Shown here: positions 1,824 through 13,306 of the stretch, in pieces
How positions within the stretch are numbered: position 1 is the first letter of the stretch
Layout of the letters: each line of letters starts with the position of its first letter
Origin: a virus
Direction: 5' to 3' (one strand)
DNA length: 21,818 nucleotides
IMG/VR virus record: IMGVR_UViG_3300044817_000009
Location: 1-21,818 of that record
Position numbers and translations under genes: made by a program
The notes under the pieces: generated by a model
The model's database searches: none
What the model was told of the DNA's origin: nothing
The model's input: the letters and a program-made list of their open reading frames with translations, nothing else

Positions 1824-2207
1824 ATGACCGACAGCATTCTCAACAGCATCAAGAAGAACGTCGGGCTAACCGAAGACTACACGGCCTTCGATTCCGACAT
1901 CATCATGTACATCAACTCAGTCTTCTCAACTCTGAAGCAACTGGGAGTGGGTCCCGATGCGGGATTCAGCATTGATGATGCTTCAACGGAATGGGTCGAC
2001 TACCTCGGTGCCGACCTGCTTGACTTCAACGAGGTCCGAACTTACATCACGCTCCGAGTTCGGATGCTCTTCGATCCTCCGCAGACATCGTTCCATGTGA
2101 CTGCGATGAAGGAGCAGATCCAGGAGCATGAGTGGCGGCTGAACGTCACTCGAGAGAACACCGAATGGATCGACCCAAACCCGATCGTCATTCCAGAGGA
2201 GATCTGA
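1824..2207 (+). CDS. Head-tail connector protein, gp6-like
   Basis: This 127-residue protein matches the pattern of small all-helical head-tail connector (gp6/Ad1-like) proteins of Gram-positive siphophages. It shows an N-terminal SILNSIKKNVGL helix, a DSDIIMYINSVFSTLKQLGVGP segment, a DASTEWVDY segment, an RTYITLRVRMLFDPP helix and a C-terminal EHEWRLN element. Connectors of this type form a 12-fold ring below the portal that gates DNA and docks the closure protein. The start has a near-perfect GGAGGTGA ribosome site (1813-1820). Usually this gene follows the capsid gene; here it precedes the large terminase, separated from portal and capsid by three genes. The assignment rests on remembered family pattern rather than a search. 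Confidence 0.75.
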   Translation: MTDSILNSIKKNVGLTEDYTAFDSDIIMYINSVFSTLKQLGVGPDAGFSIDDASTEWVDYLGADLLDFNEVRTYITLRVRMLFDPPQTSFHVTAMKEQIQEHEWRLNVTRENTEWIDPNPIVIPEEI

Positions 2208-2208
2208 G

Positions 2209-3174
2209 ATGGCGAAGACGACTCAACTCGTGATCGTCGCAATCCCCTCTGACGACGATCCTGTCTGGAAGTTCTCCAGCGAGAAAGTTCCACACATCAC
2301 GCTCCTTTACCTTGGGAGTCCGGACTTCTCGCCGGAGGAATTCCAGCACGTCACTGAGTATGTCCAACATGCTTCTTCGCAACTCACCCGTTTCGGTCTC
2401 GACGTCGATCGGCGTGGTGTTCTCGGAGACAAGAGTGCGGATGTACTCTTCTTTTCCAAGGGTTGGAGTCTCAAGGATCTAGCTCAGTTTCGCAGCAACC
2501 TGCTGCAAGACGATCTCATCTCAACGGCGTACCACTCGGTCGATCAGTTCCCTGAGTGGACGCCGCACTTGACGATGGGGTTTCCGGACACCCCGGCGAA
2601 GAAAGACAACGCGGATTACAACCGCTTCTCTTGGGTCCGTTTCGACAAGATCGCTTTGTGGGACGACGACTCAACAGGTCCGACCTTCGAACTCAAATCC
2701 GACGAACGCGGCTTGGAGGTCGCCATGTCCCAACTCGACATCGGCCGTAAAGCCGTTGAAGAGATTTTCCACTCCGGCGTCAAAGGCATGAAGTGGGGCG
2801 TCAGGAAGGATCGTCCTTCCGCTTCTTCCGGTGGTTCTCCGCAGAAAGTTCATGTGGAGCAGAAGGGCACAAAGCTCAAAACCACTGGAGGCGCCGGACA
2901 CAAGCCTCATGTCCAAGCTGTGGAGAAAGTAGTTGCGCAGCAAATCGCTCGGAAGAGCGGGGTACATGCTCTCTCGAACAAAGAGCTGCAGGACGTCGTC
3001 ACGCGCATGAATCTCGAACAGCAATTCGTTCGTCTCTCCCCACAATCCAAGAAGCAAAAGGCAAGCAAGTTCGTTGCCGAGACACTCCTTGGCGTGGGTA
3101 AGCAGCAAGTTTCTAGAGTGGCGAACGATGTCGCAGCTCAGCAAGTCGCGAAAGCGATGAACAGGACCAAATGA
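2209..3174 (+). CDS. 2H phosphoesterase fused to an HxGVKGMKWG head-module domain
   Basis: The 321-residue product has two halves. Residues 1-170 look like a LigT/2H phosphoesterase: a first HIT motif (His29-Thr31, in VPHITLLYLG) and a second HLT motif (His120-Thr122, in TPHLTMGF), the paired HxT/S signature of enzymes acting on 2',3'-cyclic phosphates, 2'-5' links or cyclic oligonucleotides. Residues 188-200 carry HSGVKGMKWGVRK, a motif recurring in phage head-cluster proteins. A basic, disordered linker and a C-terminal helical segment (about 254-318, LSNKELQDVVTRMNLEQQF then a KFVAE..GVGKQ stretch) follow. The 2H half predicts an active soluble enzyme; its substrate is unknown. The second half is probably structural or a packaging tag, by inference. 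A GAGGAG site precedes the ATG, and the stop overlaps the alternative terminase start. RNA-end repair, tRNA protection and cyclic-nucleotide counter-defence are all possible. Confidence 0.75.
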   Translation: MAKTTQLVIVAIPSDDDPVWKFSSEKVPHITLLYLGSPDFSPEEFQHVTEYVQHASSQLTRFGLDVDRRGVLGDKSADVLFFSKGWSLKDLAQFRSNLLQDDLISTAYHSVDQFPEWTPHLTMGFPDTPAKKDNADYNRFSWVRFDKIALWDDDSTGPTFELKSDERGLEVAMSQLDIGRKAVEEIFHSGVKGMKWGVRKDRPSASSGGSPQKVHVEQKGTKLKTTGGAGHKPHVQAVEKVVAQQIARKSGVHALSNKELQDVVTRMNLEQQFVRLSPQSKKQKASKFVAETLLGVGKQQVSRVANDVAAQQVAKAMNRTK

Positions 3175-3188
3175 AGGGAGGGTTTTTG

Positions 3189-4937
3189 ATGGGTCTATCC
3201 AATACGGCAACTCCGATCTATTACGGTCGGTTTCGCGATGCGGTTATGGACGGGAAGATTCCAGTCTGTCGGGAAATCTCACAGGAGATGAACCGCATCG
3301 ATAGGCTCATCAAAAACCCGAACATTTACTACGATGATCAAGCAATTGAAGGTTTCATTCGCTACTGTGAGAACGAGTTAACCCTCACTGACGGAAGCGA
3401 TCTTCATTTGCTTGATCCGTTCAAGGTCTGGGCTGAGCAAATTTTCGGTTGGTACTTCTTCGTCGAACGAAGTGTTTACGTTCCGAACGAAGACGGTCAT
3501 GGCGGGCAGTACGAGAAGCGCAGGATCAAGAAACGCCTGACTTCTAAGCAGTATCTGATTGTCGCTCGAGGCGCCGCTAAGTCTATGTATGCGGAATGTA
3601 TTCAGGCATACTTCTTGAACGTCGACACCTCGACCACGCATCAGATCACTACTGCGCCTACGATGAAGCAGGCCGACGAAGTAATGTCGCCCTTCCGAAC
3701 TGCTATCACGCGCTCGCGCGGACCTCTGTTCAAATTCTTGACAGCTGGTTCGTTACAGAACACGACCGGTGCTCGAGCCCTTCGCCAGAAATTGGTTTCC
3801 ACCAAGAAGGGTATTGAGAATTTTCTCACCGGATCTTTGCTCGAAGTTCGTCCCATGGCTATCAACAAGCTGCAGGGACTCCGCACCAAGGTAAACACGG
3901 TAGACGAATGGCTCTCTGGAGATCTTCGCGAAGACGTTATCGGTGCTATCGAGCAGGGAGCCTCCAAGCTTGACGATTATTTGATCGTCGCCATCAGCTC
4001 AGAAGGAACAGTTCGAAACGGATCTGGCGACACGATCAAGATGGAGCTGGCAAAAATCCTCAAGGGGGATTACACCGCTCCGCATGTTTCGATCTGGCAT
4101 TACAAGCTCGATGACGTAGAAGAAGTCGCTGATCCGGCCATGTGGCCGAAAGCAAATCCGAACATCGGTAAGACAGTAAGTTACGAGACCTACCAGCTCG
4201 ATGTTGAGCGAGCCGAGAAGGCTCCCGCTACCAGGAACGACATCCTGGCCAAGCGGTTTGGTATTCCGATGGAAGGTCACAGTTACTTCTTCACGTATGA
4301 GGAGACGGAACTCCATGTTCCGCAGAATTTCTGGGGCAATGTCTGCTCTATGGGCGCCGACCTCTCGCAGGGAGACGACTTCTGTGCCTTCACGTTCATT
4401 TTTCCGTTCCGAGATGGAAGCTTCGGTGTAAAGACTCGAAGTTACATCACCAGCCTGACCCTCAAGAAGCTTCCTGGAGCTCTTCGGCACAAGTACGAGG
4501 AGTTCATCAAGGAGGGTAGCCTTTTGGTGATGGACGGCACGGTCTTGGATGTAGGCGGAGAGGTTTATGACGACCTAGAAGCTCATATCGAAGCCTGCGA
4601 ATACGACGTTCGTTCTTTCGGGTACGACCCTTATGGTGCTAAAGAATTCGTTACTCGTTGGGAACAAGAGAACGGACCCTATGGTATCGAGAAGGTTCTT
4701 CAGGGCGCTCGAACCGAATCCGTGCCACTAGGCGAATTAAAGATTCTCAGTGAAGAGCGAATGCTCATCTTTGACGAGAGTCTGATGTCGTTCACCATGG
4801 GTAACGCCATCACTCTAGAGGACACCAACGGCAACCGGAAACTCTGGAAGATGCGTCGAGAAGAAAAGATCGACAACGTGGCCGCCATGATGGATGCCTA
4901 CGTCGCCTACAAAGCCCATAAGGAGGCTTTCGAGTGA
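3189..4937 (+). CDS. terL: Terminase large subunit
   Basis: This 582-residue packaging motor ATPase and nuclease belongs to the Terminase_1 (HK97-like) family. The ATPase half has a deviant Walker A, ARGAAKS (126-132), and a Walker B ending in Asp239-Glu240 (VNTVDEW). The RNase H-like nuclease half supplies the expected acidic residues: Asp391 in GADLS, Asp480 in GYDPYG, and Asp562/Asp569 in IDNVAAMMDA. It binds the portal, translocates DNA into the prohead and cuts genome ends. The ATG at 3189 is preferred because AGGGAGG precedes it at good spacing; the ATG at 3171 overlaps the previous stop but has no clear ribosome site. Length is normal for the family and the gene looks intact. The next gene starts by GTGA overlap. 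Confidence 0.95.
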   Translation: MGLSNTATPIYYGRFRDAVMDGKIPVCREISQEMNRIDRLIKNPNIYYDDQAIEGFIRYCENELTLTDGSDLHLLDPFKVWAEQIFGWYFFVERSVYVPNEDGHGGQYEKRRIKKRLTSKQYLIVARGAAKSMYAECIQAYFLNVDTSTTHQITTAPTMKQADEVMSPFRTAITRSRGPLFKFLTAGSLQNTTGARALRQKLVSTKKGIENFLTGSLLEVRPMAINKLQGLRTKVNTVDEWLSGDLREDVIGAIEQGASKLDDYLIVAISSEGTVRNGSGDTIKMELAKILKGDYTAPHVSIWHYKLDDVEEVADPAMWPKANPNIGKTVSYETYQLDVERAEKAPATRNDILAKRFGIPMEGHSYFFTYEETELHVPQNFWGNVCSMGADLSQGDDFCAFTFIFPFRDGSFGVKTRSYITSLTLKKLPGALRHKYEEFIKEGSLLVMDGTVLDVGGEVYDDLEAHIEACEYDVRSFGYDPYGAKEFVTRWEQENGPYGIEKVLQGARTESVPLGELKILSEERMLIFDESLMSFTMGNAITLEDTNGNRKLWKMRREEKIDNVAAMMDAYVAYKAHKEAFE

Positions 4938-5320
4938 AAATCTATGCCGATGAGAAACCCAGTCTCGAGGACTTGGCTCACCACGGCGTCAAGGGCATGA
5001 AGTGGGGGCAACGTAAAGCGCGGCCTTCTACTTCAGACATCCACGATGCTCGAGCTCGTCAAGCTTCTCGGCAGAACGAGATCAATCAGAACATCGGCCG
5101 GCTGAACCTCGCCAAAAGCGGTTCAAAGCAGCAAGACGCTTTGGCGAAGAAGGTGGCAACCGGCATGGACAAGTTCGACACCAACAAAGATGCAGCTGTC
5201 GCCGCCCGAATGACGAAGGGCGAGAAAGCGGCCGCGGTCATGCTAACCGGTCCCATCGGTCTCCTCGTCATCGGAGCGAACAAGGCCCACGTCAAGAAGC
5301 TCGAGAAGATCCAGAAGTAG
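4934..5320 (+). CDS. Small HxGVKGMKWG-motif protein with a hydrophobic segment
   Basis: This 128-residue protein carries HHGVKGMKWGQRK near its N-terminus (motif 17-25), the same motif as the 2H phosphoesterase protein encoded just before the terminase. After it come a basic, Gln/Asn-rich probably helical region (30-95) and a hydrophobic stretch (about 99-115, AAAVMLTGPIGLLVIGA) long enough for one membrane-spanning helix, then a Lys-rich tail. The GTG start has AGGAGG 7 bases upstream and overlaps the terminase stop. Function is unknown. The shared motif suggests that both proteins contact the same partner, perhaps the prohead or portal. The hydrophobic segment could insert in a membrane at DNA injection or lysis, but a holin role is unsupported. 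Confidence 0.75.
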   Translation: MKIYADEKPSLEDLAHHGVKGMKWGQRKARPSTSDIHDARARQASRQNEINQNIGRLNLAKSGSKQQDALAKKVATGMDKFDTNKDAAVAARMTKGEKAAAVMLTGPIGLLVIGANKAHVKKLEKIQK

Positions 5321-5353: not shown

Positions 5354-6601
5354 ATGGGTAGATTCAGGGACGCATTGTCCCATGCTTGGAACGCTTTCAA
5401 CAATCTGGACAAGCATCCCGAGGATGCGTATCGGAACTACGGTCCTGCTACTTATTCCATGCGACCGGATCGCGTTCGTTCGATAACCTCGAATGAAAGA
5501 ACGATTCTCGCCTCGATTCTTAACCGTCTGAGTATGGATGTCGCGGCGGTCGAGATCAAGCATGTCCGGCTCGACGACGAAGATCGCTTTCTCGAAGTGA
5601 TACCGAGCGGGATTAACAACTGTTTGACGGTGGAAGCCAACATCGATCAGGGAGCAACTCACTTTCGGCAGGACATCGCGATGACGATGTTTGACCAGGG
5701 CGTACTTGGCGTGGTCCCCGTCGACACAACGATAGACCCGAAGGTTTCTGCCGGATTCGACGTTCAGACAATGCGGGTTGGCACTATCGTCAACTGGTTT
5801 CCCGACTTTCTTCGGCTGGAGGTCTATAACGAAAACACCGGTCGCCGCGAGCAGGTCACCCTGCCGAAACGATCGATTGCTGTCGTTGAGAACCCGCTGT
5901 ACGAAGTGATGAATAACCAGAACTCGACTCTACAACGGCTCATCCGAACTCTGAACCTCTTGGATGTAGTCGGCGAACAGACCAGTTCCGGAAAGCTTGA
6001 CCTGATCATCCAGCTCCCCTACGTGGTCAAGTCGGAATCCAGACGAGCCCAAGCCGAACAGCGTCGGAAAGAAGTCGAGTTCCAGCTGAAGGGCAGCAAG
6101 TACGGCATCGCCTATACCGACGGCACTGAGAAGATCACGCAGCTGAACCGGCCGGCCGAGAACAACCTCCTCGAACAAGTCAAGTTTCTTACGGCAATGC
6201 TGTACAGCCAGCTTGGCCTTACCGAAGAAGTTATGAACGGAACCGCGGACGAGAAGACCATGCTGAACTACAATAACCGGACGATCAAACCGGTTGTGAC
6301 GGCAATTGTTGAAGCCATGAGGCGCACCTTCCTTTCGAAGACTGCGCGTTCTCAGAAGCAGTCAATTCTTGCATTCAAGGACGTGTTCAGTCTCGTACCT
6401 ATGGAGGTAATCGCCGAGATTGCCGACAAGTTCTCTCGGAACGAGATTCTGAGCGCCAACGAGATCCGACAAGCCATCGGATACCGACCTTCCAAGGATC
6501 CGAAGGCCGATCAGCTCGTCAACAGCAACATGCCGGCACCGTCGGTGCCAGTGAATTCAATTCAGGAAGGAGCAGCTCAAAATGACAGTAGCCAAGCCTG
6601 A
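5354..6601 (+). CDS. Portal protein
   Basis: This 415-residue protein has the features of an HK97-type portal (Phage_portal family). It shows an N-terminal SxNERTILASILNRLSMDVA helix, a central beta-rich region with WFPDF and TLPKRSIAVVENPLY segments, a QLKGSKYGIAYTDGTEKITQLNRP stem/crown region, a LGLTEEVMNGTADEKTMLNYNNRTIKPV segment, and a C-terminal NEIRQAIGYRPSKDPKAD motif typical of portals. It forms the 12-mer ring at one capsid vertex through which DNA passes and to which the terminase docks. The start has a perfect AAGGAGGTGA site (5341-5350). The 3' end overlaps the capsid fusion gene by 20 bases. Length is at the short end of normal for the family. Confidence 0.9.
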   Translation: MGRFRDALSHAWNAFNNLDKHPEDAYRNYGPATYSMRPDRVRSITSNERTILASILNRLSMDVAAVEIKHVRLDDEDRFLEVIPSGINNCLTVEANIDQGATHFRQDIAMTMFDQGVLGVVPVDTTIDPKVSAGFDVQTMRVGTIVNWFPDFLRLEVYNENTGRREQVTLPKRSIAVVENPLYEVMNNQNSTLQRLIRTLNLLDVVGEQTSSGKLDLIIQLPYVVKSESRRAQAEQRRKEVEFQLKGSKYGIAYTDGTEKITQLNRPAENNLLEQVKFLTAMLYSQLGLTEEVMNGTADEKTMLNYNNRTIKPVVTAIVEAMRRTFLSKTARSQKQSILAFKDVFSLVPMEVIAEIADKFSRNEILSANEIRQAIGYRPSKDPKADQLVNSNMPAPSVPVNSIQEGAAQNDSSQA

Positions 6602-8549
6602 CTTCAGCGGCTACGCCACGCGGGCCAACCGCAAGTGCACCGACGGACGGACCATCAAGCCGGAAGCCTTCAAGGAGATGGACAAGGTCACCGTCCCTCT
6701 GGTCTGGCAGCACGGTCACAACAGCGCCGACAACGTCCTCGGCCATGCAATTCTCGAATCCCGTGACGACGGCGTCTACGCCTACGGGTACTTCAACGAG
6801 ACGACCTCCGGAAAGAACTCCAAGCTGCTCGTGCAGCACGGGGACATCACGGCTCTGTCGATCTACGCGAACAAGCTCGTCGAGAAGTCCAAGCAGGTCT
6901 TTCACGGTGTGATCTGCGAGGTCAGCCTCGTACTCAAGGGCGCGAACCCGGGTGCGTACATCGACAACGTGAGCATCCAGCACGCCGATGGATCCATCGA
7001 GGACTCGGACGACGAAGCAGTCATCTCCGCTGGCGAGGCGCTCGAGCACTTCGACGCCCAGGACGACGTGGACGACGAACTTCTGCACGCAACTGTGCAG
7101 GAAATCTACGACACGATGACCGACGACCAGAAGGCCGTTCTGCACTTCATGGTGGGCACCGCTGTCGAAAACGCCGGCACCGCCGAACACTCCGACAAGG
7201 ACGACAACGAGTCCGGCGACGACGCCGACGACAAGGAAGGAATTCAACACATGAACGTCTTCGACCAGGACAAGGCCGGCGGCAAGGAGGGCGAGAAGGG
7301 CCACGTGCTCACGCACTCGGACGTGCAGACCATCAACGAGCGGGCTGAGAAGCTCGGATCGATGAAGGCCGCGGCCGAGGAGTTCGCTCTCTCGCACGGC
7401 ATCACCAACCTCGAGATCCTCTTCCCGGACGCGAAGAACATCACCAACACGCCGGAGTGGATCAAGCGCCAGACCGACTGGGTCGTCGGCGTTCTGAGCT
7501 CCACCCGGAAGTCCCCTTTCTCCCGGATCAAGTCGACGTTCGCCGACCTGACCCAGGACGCGGCCCGCGCCAAGGGTTACATCACGGGCAGCCTGAAGAA
7601 GGAAGAGTGGTTCTCGGTCACGCACCGGACCACCGGCCCGACCACGGTCTACAAGAAGCAGAAGCTCGACCGTGACGACATCATCGACATCACCGACTTC
7701 GACGTCGTGTCGTGGATGAAGACCGAGATGCGCCTCATGCTCGAGGAGGAGGTCGCGCGCGCGATCCTCATCGGCGACGGTCGTGAGGTGGACGACGAGG
7801 ACAAGATCAAGGACCCGATGGCCGCCACCGACGGCAACGGCATCCGGTCGATCCTGCACGAGCACGAGCTGTTCGTGGTGGAGTCCTTCGTCAATCTCGA
7901 CGACGCCAACTCGTCCATGATGGAGGTCGTGGACCAGATCATCATGGACCGCCAGTACTGGAAGGGTACCGGCAGCCCGACGTTCTACACCACCGAGAAC
8001 GTCATCGCGAAGCTGCTCACCCAGCGCGACGCGTTCGACAAGCGCATGTGGCCGACCATCGACGCGCTGGCCGCCGAGATGCGCGTCTCCAGCATCGTCG
8101 CCGTCGAGGTCATGGAGGACGAGACCGACCTGGTCGGCATCATCGTCAACCTGGCGGACTACAACGTCGGCGCCGACAAGGGCGGCGAAGTCAACCTGTT
8201 CGACGACTTCGACATCGACTACAACCAGTACAAGTACCTGATCGAGACCCGCATCTCCGGTGCGCTGGTCAAGATCAAGTCCGCGATGCTGGTCAAGAAG
8301 ACCGCTCAGGCCAACGCCAAGGTCACGCCTTCCTCGCCGACCTTCGTCAAGGCGACCGGCGTCATCACCATCCCGACGCAGACCGGCGTGGTCTACAAGG
8401 ACGGCAGCCCGACCGGTTCCACCCTCTCCGCCGGCGCTCAGACCGCTCTGGCTGTCGGGGCCTCGAAGGACGTCTACGCCGTTCCGGCGTCCGGCTACTT
8501 CTTCGAGAACAACGAGCACCGGAAGTGGACCTTCACGCGCGACGCGTGA
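6582..8549 (+). CDS. Fused prohead protease / scaffold / HK97-fold major capsid protein with extra C-terminal domain
   Basis: The 655-residue protein joins activities usually split over two or three genes. Residues 1-130 are a prohead maturation protease: WQHGH (His44) and GDITALSIY (Ser93) fit the catalytic His and Ser of the S78/U35 family, and EVSLVLKGANPGA is its usual end. Residues 131-223 are acidic with a conserved-looking helix (ATVQEIYDTMTDDQKAVLHFM) and resemble a scaffold or delta region. Residues about 224-579 are an HK97-fold capsid protein (for example FSRIKSTFADL, ITGSLKKEEWF, LIGDGR). Residues 580-655 form an appended beta domain shared with the tail protein at 9207. Codons are strongly GC3-rich, as expected for the most abundant virion protein. 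GGAAGGAG precedes the ATG. Processing presumably separates the parts; an internal start at 7251 may also make capsid protein alone. Confidence 0.92.
   Translation: MTVAKPDFSGYATRANRKCTDGRTIKPEAFKEMDKVTVPLVWQHGHNSADNVLGHAILESRDDGVYAYGYFNETTSGKNSKLLVQHGDITALSIYANKLVEKSKQVFHGVICEVSLVLKGANPGAYIDNVSIQHADGSIEDSDDEAVISAGEALEHFDAQDDVDDELLHATVQEIYDTMTDDQKAVLHFMVGTAVENAGTAEHSDKDDNESGDDADDKEGIQHMNVFDQDKAGGKEGEKGHVLTHSDVQTINERAEKLGSMKAAAEEFALSHGITNLEILFPDAKNITNTPEWIKRQTDWVVGVLSSTRKSPFSRIKSTFADLTQDAARAKGYITGSLKKEEWFSVTHRTTGPTTVYKKQKLDRDDIIDITDFDVVSWMKTEMRLMLEEEVARAILIGDGREVDDEDKIKDPMAATDGNGIRSILHEHELFVVESFVNLDDANSSMMEVVDQIIMDRQYWKGTGSPTFYTTENVIAKLLTQRDAFDKRMWPTIDALAAEMRVSSIVAVEVMEDETDLVGIIVNLADYNVGADKGGEVNLFDDFDIDYNQYKYLIETRISGALVKIKSAMLVKKTAQANAKVTPSSPTFVKATGVITIPTQTGVVYKDGSPTGSTLSAGAQTALAVGASKDVYAVPASGYFFENNEHRKWTFTRDA
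7233..7253 (+). promoter_or_regulatory. Possible internal ribosome site and start for the capsid part
   Basis: Inside the protease-capsid fusion, AAGGAAGG (7233-7240) lies 10 bases before an in-frame ATG at 7251 (residue Met224), right at the boundary between the acidic scaffold-like region and the capsid domain. Translation from here would give a 432-residue capsid protein without protease, comparable in idea to the internal start that makes scaffold Nu3 in phage lambda. The spacing is slightly long, so this is plausible but unproven. Confidence 0.4.
8331..8546 (+). other. C-terminal beta domain of the capsid protein, copy 1 of a shared domain
   Basis: Residues about 584-655 of the capsid protein contain GVITIPTQTGVVYK, a Gly/Ser/Ala-rich middle, then DVYAVPASGYFF and a terminal W.F. 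The same pattern ends the major tail protein at 9885-10085 with roughly 25 matching positions by eye. HK97-fold capsids normally end without it, so it is an added, probably surface-exposed domain. Confidence 0.75.
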
Positions 8550-11806: not shown

Positions 11807-13306
11807 ATGGCCGACGTAATTGTGTACAACAAAGACAAAGTCGACGCACTGACTGGTCAAGCCGTCATCGGGGCAACGATCAACCCCCAAGGCGAACTGA
11901 TTCTGTCTCGTCTGAGTCTCCCCGACATCAACATCGGGCGCGCGACCCCGGAGATCACGATCGATGATCTTCTGTCTACTACGCCGTTCTACATCGCGCA
12001 CCGAGGCTCCGGCGATGAAATTCCGGAGCACACGATCGAGGCATATCGCTATGCGGTAGCAGCCGGCGCCAAAGCTATCGAGGTTTCGGTGCAGTCGACC
12101 GCTGATGGAGTGTTGGTGTGTTTCCACGACACTACGCTTGCGCGGATGACCGGCGGTACGGCCGGTGCGGTGAGCGATTACACCTATGCTCAACTGAAGA
12201 ACATGATCAAGGTCAAGGGGCAGGGTCTGCTCGGTCCGAACTGGCCCGATCTGGAGATCCCGCTCTTCCGCAAGGTCATCGAAGAGTTCTACAAGAACGT
12301 CGTCATCTTCGTGGAGCCGAAGGACACTGCGTCGACAGTTCCACTCCAGACGATTCTGAACAGCCTGGAGAACTCCACTGCATCAATTGTGTACAAGTCG
12401 CACATCAATGCGACATCCGGTCTGACCTGGGCGAAAGCCAACGGGTACAAGACCTGGGGATACACGGACCCGACGACCACGTCGGCGCAGATGGACGCGG
12501 TTGACAGTATCGTCGACTACTGGGGGGTTCCGTTTACCGCAACGGACGCGCAGATCTCGATGGCGGTGGCGCACAGCCCCGTCAAGCCGGTCATCGTGTG
12601 GGAAGTCCACCGTCGCGATCAGCGGAATGCCTACAGCGCCCTTGGCGTGAAGGGCATGATGACCTCGGGATACTCCTACGTGACTCGTACAACTGCGATG
12701 AAGACGAAGACCAACTTCGATCTCAAAATCGCAGCCCCGGGAAACATCACGGTCGGAAACAACAGCGACGCGGAAGCTCTGAAGTTCTTCGGCACTAACG
12801 AGGTCGGGTTCATCCAGCAACCGAACCGATCAGTTCTTCTGGGATCCCTTTGCCCGATTACCAACCGGGCAGCCACGTACACCATCGCGTGGGAGATGAT
12901 GTTCCCGATCCTTCCGGCCGTCGCCGAACACGCGGGTATCGCATTCGGAAAGGTTTCGGATGACGTCTACACCTTCGGTTCCGCGAACAAGACGGGTGGG
13001 TATCACGTCCTTCTCCGTGGCGACGGAGATCTTCAGCTCTACACGCACACGGCCGGAGTTGGATCTGGAACTCAGATCGGCTCCTCGAATGTCAGCGTTC
13101 CGGACCCAGCGAACCCCGTCGCAGGTGTTTGGATGTCTTTCAATGTTGTCGTCACGCCGACCAACATCACAGTCAACCGAACCGACGTAGCCAAGACGTT
13201 CACGGTGGCGGACACCACCTACCGCGGCGGCTATATTCACCTGCTGGCCGGCAACGTTGCCGACGCAACGAAGACTGCTCGCTTCCGGAACGTCGTCATC
13301 ACTTAG
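11807..13306 (+). CDS. Glycerophosphodiesterase-like tail protein with C-terminal jelly-roll-like region
   Basis: The 499-residue protein has a short N-terminal region (1-58), a GDPD TIM-barrel domain (about 60-295) and a C-terminal beta-rich region (about 305-499) resembling a LamG/concanavalin-like fold. GDPD marks are IAHRGSGDEIPEHTIEAY (His65, Arg66, Glu74), AIEVSV (Glu92), CFHDTTLARMTGG (His107, Asp108), VIFVEPKD (Glu170) and LGVKGMMTSG near the barrel end. The usual IExDV metal-binding Asp is Ser94, and the TD.P-type Asp is replaced by Ser. GDPD domains in phage tails are thought to cut teichoic acids or related phosphodiester polymers at the cell surface. GAAGGGAGG-type site precedes the ATG. 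Its place between a tail tube paralogue and the gp10-like gene suggests a virion protein; loss of the Asp could mean a binding-only role. Confidence 0.8.
   Translation: MADVIVYNKDKVDALTGQAVIGATINPQGELILSRLSLPDINIGRATPEITIDDLLSTTPFYIAHRGSGDEIPEHTIEAYRYAVAAGAKAIEVSVQSTADGVLVCFHDTTLARMTGGTAGAVSDYTYAQLKNMIKVKGQGLLGPNWPDLEIPLFRKVIEEFYKNVVIFVEPKDTASTVPLQTILNSLENSTASIVYKSHINATSGLTWAKANGYKTWGYTDPTTTSAQMDAVDSIVDYWGVPFTATDAQISMAVAHSPVKPVIVWEVHRRDQRNAYSALGVKGMMTSGYSYVTRTTAMKTKTNFDLKIAAPGNITVGNNSDAEALKFFGTNEVGFIQQPNRSVLLGSLCPITNRAATYTIAWEMMFPILPAVAEHAGIAFGKVSDDVYTFGSANKTGGYHVLLRGDGDLQLYTHTAGVGSGTQIGSSNVSVPDPANPVAGVWMSFNVVVTPTNITVNRTDVAKTFTVADTTYRGGYIHLLAGNVADATKTARFRNVVIT

Follow-up and report, generated by a model that had tools for sequence, protein, structure and literature searches.

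The gene lying between the head–tail connector and the terminase large subunit (TerL) of a 21.8 kb virus fragment from IMG/VR encodes a 2H phosphoesterase domain joined to a ten-residue tag and a helical tail. We consider it probable (roughly 0.6) that the product is a virion-associated, predicted-active 2H enzyme that enters the cell together with the phage DNA. This reading draws on the fold of the domain and its intact catalytic residues, purifying selection, the gene slot, fusions of one 2H lineage to three kinds of head protein and the variety of enzymes found behind one tag. The analysed stretch of 21,818 nucleotides is called the window below.

The 2H-tag gene and the fold of its N-terminal domain

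The open reading frame (ORF) was confirmed as real, with an intact 2H domain followed by the tag and the helical tail (Table 1). The stop codon of the connector gene preceded its start by one base, and the terminase start was overlapped (ATGA at 3171). On a TerL tree, the terminase of the contig was nearest to ReqiPepy6 and Gordonia phages. Scans for promoters and terminators yielded nothing above chance. The protease–capsid gene of the window had a third-position GC of 0.91, compared with 0.61–0.71 in its neighbours, and an ORF in the tail region (11807–13306) resembled, by eye, a glycerophosphodiester phosphodiesterase (HRGSGDEIPEHT).

Table 1. Features of the 2H-tag gene and of neighbouring genes, in window coordinates.
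Feature	Position	Strand	Evidence or remark
2H-tag protein, 321 aa	2209–3174	+	ATG start; ORF and translation; Pfam and PHROG matches
2H phosphoesterase domain, residues 5–165	2221–2703	+	AF2 pLDDT mostly >90; LigT, CPDase, Usb1 and YjcG matched in Foldseek and VIA
First catalytic motif HIT, residues 29–31	2293–2301	+	H29 and T31 invariant in relatives
Second catalytic motif HLT, residues 120–122, inside WTPHLTMGF	2566–2574	+	P119, H120 and T122 invariant
Hydrophobic-x-His element I-F-H, residues 186–188, at tag start	2764–2772	+	Candidate maturation-protease site
HSGVKGMKWG tag (DUF7211), residues 188–197	2770–2799	+	Pfam PF23847; pLDDT <50, predicted disordered
Tail domain, LSNxELQ...RxNLEQQ helices	2917–3102	+	HMM built in this study
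Head–tail connector, upstream neighbour	1824–2207	+	Phage_connect_2, E 3.6e-38
Terminase large subunit (TerL), downstream neighbour	3171–4937	+	TerL_nuclease, E 9e-35
Second tagged protein, 128 aa, in the TerL–portal gap; tag at 4979–5008	4934–5320	+	DUF7211, E 2.7e-11
Portal protein	5354–6601	+	Phage_portal, E 1.3e-13
Prohead protease–capsid fusion	6582–8549	+	Peptidase_S78; phrog_3270, E 5e-228

A preliminary description of this DNA had taken paired HIT and HLT motifs as the mark of a 2H phosphoesterase, and database matches, conservation and the predicted fold all agreed with this. The protein matched the Pfam families 2_5_RNA_ligase2 (E 1.7e-7) and LigT_PEase (E 1.7e-5), both over their curated cut-offs, and residues 1–166 matched PHROG 24711, a family of unknown function (E 3.7e-70). 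The fusion to a phage head motif was also borne out, since the tag matched DUF7211 with 33 bits (E 3.9e-8) against a Pfam gathering score of 27. Both HxT motifs were kept in all 21 relatives compared, at identities down to 28–29%, and H29 and T31 were also invariant in a set of 19 that included MuF-fused relatives. The MuF-fused relatives retained both motifs; a portal-fused relative had HxT/HxS. The 2H domain is under purifying selection (dN/dS of 0.02–0.19, where computable).

An AlphaFold model built with the 21 relatives as input confidently predicted a two-lobed 2H core. Residues 186–222, including the tag, were predicted to be disordered, and the C-terminal helices were less certain. Over residues 1–169, the model aligned with solved 2H enzymes at Z 12–13, with plant CPDase, Usb1, YjcG and LigT at about 13; other solved folds scored 11.6 (rotavirus VP3 PDE), 8.6 (poxvirus cGAMP PDE) and 8.5 (Acb1, 7t26). 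The two HxT motifs are placed as is usual for the 2H superfamily (two HxT/S some 80–100 residues apart) and fall on the two expected predicted strands (30–36 and 120–125), and solved 2H enzymes can be superposed on the domain over its full length. A search of solved structures with the single sequence gave no match. With the family profile, a phage scaffold protein matched at E 0.09 but was discarded because the bias equalled the score, and the other matches to structures were weak too. From the model, the 2H fold of the N-terminal domain is clear.

Candidate substrates

The link to Acb1 and to counter-defence that had been proposed at the outset found no specific support. The suggested comparison with Acb1 and LigT distinguished the two by fold, LigT-type folds being closer, and not by profile: in hhalign, E. 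coli LigT (E 2.9e-5) and T4 Acb1 (E 5.8e-5) were about equally distant from the domain. The fold is close to several 2H enzymes and these profile distances are about equal, so the fold can be assigned and the substrates below are candidates. The odds that the substrate is a nucleotide signal (cyclic or 2'-5'-linked, and defence-related) are, in our estimate, slightly short of even. Among 2H enzymes, T4 Acb1 and those of avian poxviruses cleave cGAMP (PMC11410667).

Alternatively, the substrate may be cleaved RNA, of host or phage, whose 2',3'-cyclic phosphates the enzyme would open in tRNA repair or RNA processing; the enzyme could still be virion-borne. We hold such RNA ends to be a rather doubtful substrate, while RNA ends and a signalling nucleotide, weighed against each other, come out near even. 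LigT, CPDase and Usb1, as the nearest folds, argue for RNA ends. So does the best NCBIfam match, RNA 2',3'-cyclic phosphodiesterase (TIGR02258, E 7e-5), although its 22.7 bits missed by far the 65.7-bit cut-off of this LigT/ThpR equivalog. The near-equal profile distances of LigT and Acb1 argue against it, as do Iyer et al. (2017, PMC5512222), who report no association between such 2H domains and RNA ligases.

It is unlikely that the domain is specifically an anti-CBASS nuclease of the Acb1 type. There is local likeness at the second motif, where T4 gp57B has YTPHITLSY for the WTPHLTMGF found here, and Acb1 does align with the model. Yet LigT, YjcG, CPDase and Usb1 all scored well above it, a comparison in which Acb1 is the shorter protein, and PHROG 755, the T4 gp57B family, matched the domain only at 0.03.

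Head-module context, tag and putative cargo

The position of the gene in a head module, as first described, was upheld by its slot between connector and TerL, by the occurrence of the same 2H lineage on MuF and portal proteins and by the presence of the tag on many proteins of head operons. In the fetched loci, HxGVKGMKWG or a close variant occurred in up to seven genes per phage, around the terminase and portal genes and mostly 5–25 residues from the N-terminus; the 251 copies counted in phage loci were without exception on the operon strand. The exact tag codon pattern was found in 21 stretches of an 84,980-genome collection, so the tag is rare outside virus contigs. The contig that encodes one tag protein (L110) had been assigned to a Thermoplasmata archaeon by binning; either the host range may extend that far or the binning may be wrong. 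The second tagged protein of the window had a relative in the same slot of phage Miek; it carries a hydrophobic C-terminal segment that is common to related tagged proteins.

Exactly one tag-plus-tail protein was present per locus (99 loci), a tail frequency biased upward by the recruitment of most of the 80 viral loci with patterns that included tag and tail; when loci were recruited by tag codons alone, 15 of 21 had the tail. Where both connector and TerL were seen, the tag-plus-tail protein lay between them in 80 of 81 loci. The same slot in Lactococcus phage 1706 is occupied by ORF7, which has two tags and a tail of the same family and is labelled as a structural protein in its record.

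A single-copy protein fixed in one slot is what an assembly factor would look like, and the 2H-tag protein could serve in head assembly or as a minor structural component. Its 2H domain would then work in the producing cell only, during assembly or on RNA there, and would not be delivered. We judge this reading improbable on two grounds, namely the patchy presence of the 2H domain on the conserved tag-tail protein and the enzyme types known as effectors that are carried by other tagged proteins. Mapped on the TerL tree, the distribution of the 2H domain needed 9 changes, at least 4 of them forced by well-supported branches. Between two loci (L008 and L009), the 2H domains were near-identical (dS 0.14) and the tag-tail parts had diverged (dS 0.85), a pattern expected from recombination close to their boundary. 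The 2H domain appears to be an accessory element on a tag-tail protein that is itself conserved.

The cargo behind the tag varied. Post-tag segments (300 in total) fell into 78 clusters with no detectable similarity to each other, and the domains recognized on tagged proteins included, besides the tail, 2H, GNAT acetyltransferase, papain-fold (Gln_amidase) and a zincin-like domain with HESAH. Single proteins scanned for the papain-fold scored at or just under the Pfam cut-off (23.5 vs 24.1), and the best match in the set was 1e-11. The model of one tagged family resembled the ART-fold (top Z of 8.4, with nearly all of the best 25 matches listed being of that fold), an assignment made by fold comparison, with no Foldseek match below 0.1. 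One protein (L053: 8784–10424) carried a tag, GNAT, a second tag and the papain-fold in series.

With the 2H domain alone as the query, 127 phage records were retrieved (phages of Gordonia, Microbacterium, Arthrobacter, Streptomyces, Rhodococcus and Curtobacterium); a plasmid search with the domain gave no match. All seven of the MuF-type and portal-type examples opened were located inside head-module genes. The 2H domain followed a MuF domain within one protein in Beagle, Ranunculus, Tank and OneinaGillian, which are the opened Microbacterium and Arthrobacter cases except Hendrix. The Microbacterium phage Hendrix has it at the C-terminus of the portal protein, and the Curtobacterium phages Kithara and Sunfish have it at the start of a protein encoded between portal and capsid. 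In actinophages, one 2H lineage has been joined to three kinds of head module that are unrelated to one another: the tag, MuF and portal. The tag-tail slot and the MuF and portal fusions accord with a virion effector, in that the domain is encoded among head proteins or fused to them. In locus L020 (4992–7613), a 2H protein of 874 aa bears three tags and additionally contains two scaffold-type helices (TVQDVVNSMSTDQRDLLNLIVGAAVE type), which in these loci were otherwise found only in the scaffold part of protease–capsid proteins. That the 2H-tag protein is a late cytosolic enzyme outside the virion, with tag and operon position incidental, is very improbable: the MuF and portal fusions, the structural annotation of ORF7 and the scaffold-type helix of the L020 protein all weigh against it.

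Proposed delivery with the DNA and comparison with known systems

We infer that the 2H enzyme is packaged in the virion, released from its tag and injected. Produced late, the protein would be placed in the head during assembly by the tag and helical tail, its conserved part. The maturation protease would cut at I-F-H, releasing the N-terminal 2H domain, a predicted active, metal-independent phosphoesterase. As accessory cargo of some phages, the domain would enter the cell with the DNA and, ahead of phage gene expression, probably cleave a defence-related nucleotide or 2',3'-cyclic RNA ends.

The proposed cleavage site came from an element shared by tags and capsid precursors. One of L, I, V or M stood at position −2 of the tag histidine in 267 of 267 tags, against a background of 20% there. 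A hydrophobic-x-His element also lay just before the mature capsid core, at variable distance, in 25 of 25 protease–capsid precursors, compared with 8.6 expected from shuffles; these counts are descriptive and not a clean probability, as the boundary test was devised after the sequences had been inspected and the precursors are homologous. The protease–capsid protein of the window has such sites at LTHSD (about 7308) and at LSH before GITN (about 7389), among others. A broader pattern, hydrophobic-x-H-[SAG]-[DE], was strongly enriched in protease–capsid proteins and about twofold in tagged proteins; it was not relied on because it is partly a conserved protease segment. The shared element suggests, at the level of sequence, that the maturation protease may cut both kinds of protein and so free the 2H domain after I-F-H. 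More tentatively, we hypothesize that the tag is a signal that sends varied enzymes (2H, ART-fold, papain-fold, GNAT and zincin-like) into the head, where the protease would free them at the hydrophobic-x-His element for injection.

Should packaging be confirmed, ten residues would be enough to flag virion-carried phage proteins from sequence alone, in phages linked to several bacterial phyla, and this would explain why genes for enzymes that might act against host defence lie within head modules. If the reading is true, the 2H-tag protein would provide a test case of an enzyme that is present at DNA entry, before phage genes are expressed.

The fusion of 2H domains to head proteins was already predicted in 2017, when Iyer et al. 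described MuF and portal fusions carrying 2H domains and suggested that these domains act as RNases or on signalling nucleotides (PMC5512222). The version with the tag and the set of cargo defined by it appear to be undescribed, and none of the papers searched mentioned the tag. Our MuF and portal fusions match those of Iyer et al. (PMC5512222) in kind. The 2H-tag protein resembles their polyvalent, MuF and portal 2H proteins, for which those authors predicted a place in the virion, in having a 2H domain attached to a head protein. Unlike in those proteins, the head module of the 2H-tag protein is the DUF7211 tag with a helical tail. The MuF-fused, VIP2-like ADP-ribosyltransferase of Microbacterium phages (PMC7302621) is similarly an effector-like enzyme on a minor head protein for which a virion location is predicted, but both the enzyme and the head module differ. 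ORF7 of phage 1706 shares the gene slot, tags and tail family and lacks the 2H domain. Acb1 (T4 gp57B) is likewise a phage-encoded 2H fold with two HxT motifs, whereas it is short and without a head-module fusion, and the domain described here is nearer to LigT, YjcG and CPDase. LigT/ThpR, plant CPDase, Usb1 and YjcG, the nearest solved folds, are cellular enzymes of RNA or cyclic phosphates with 8–16% identity to the domain, and not phage head proteins.
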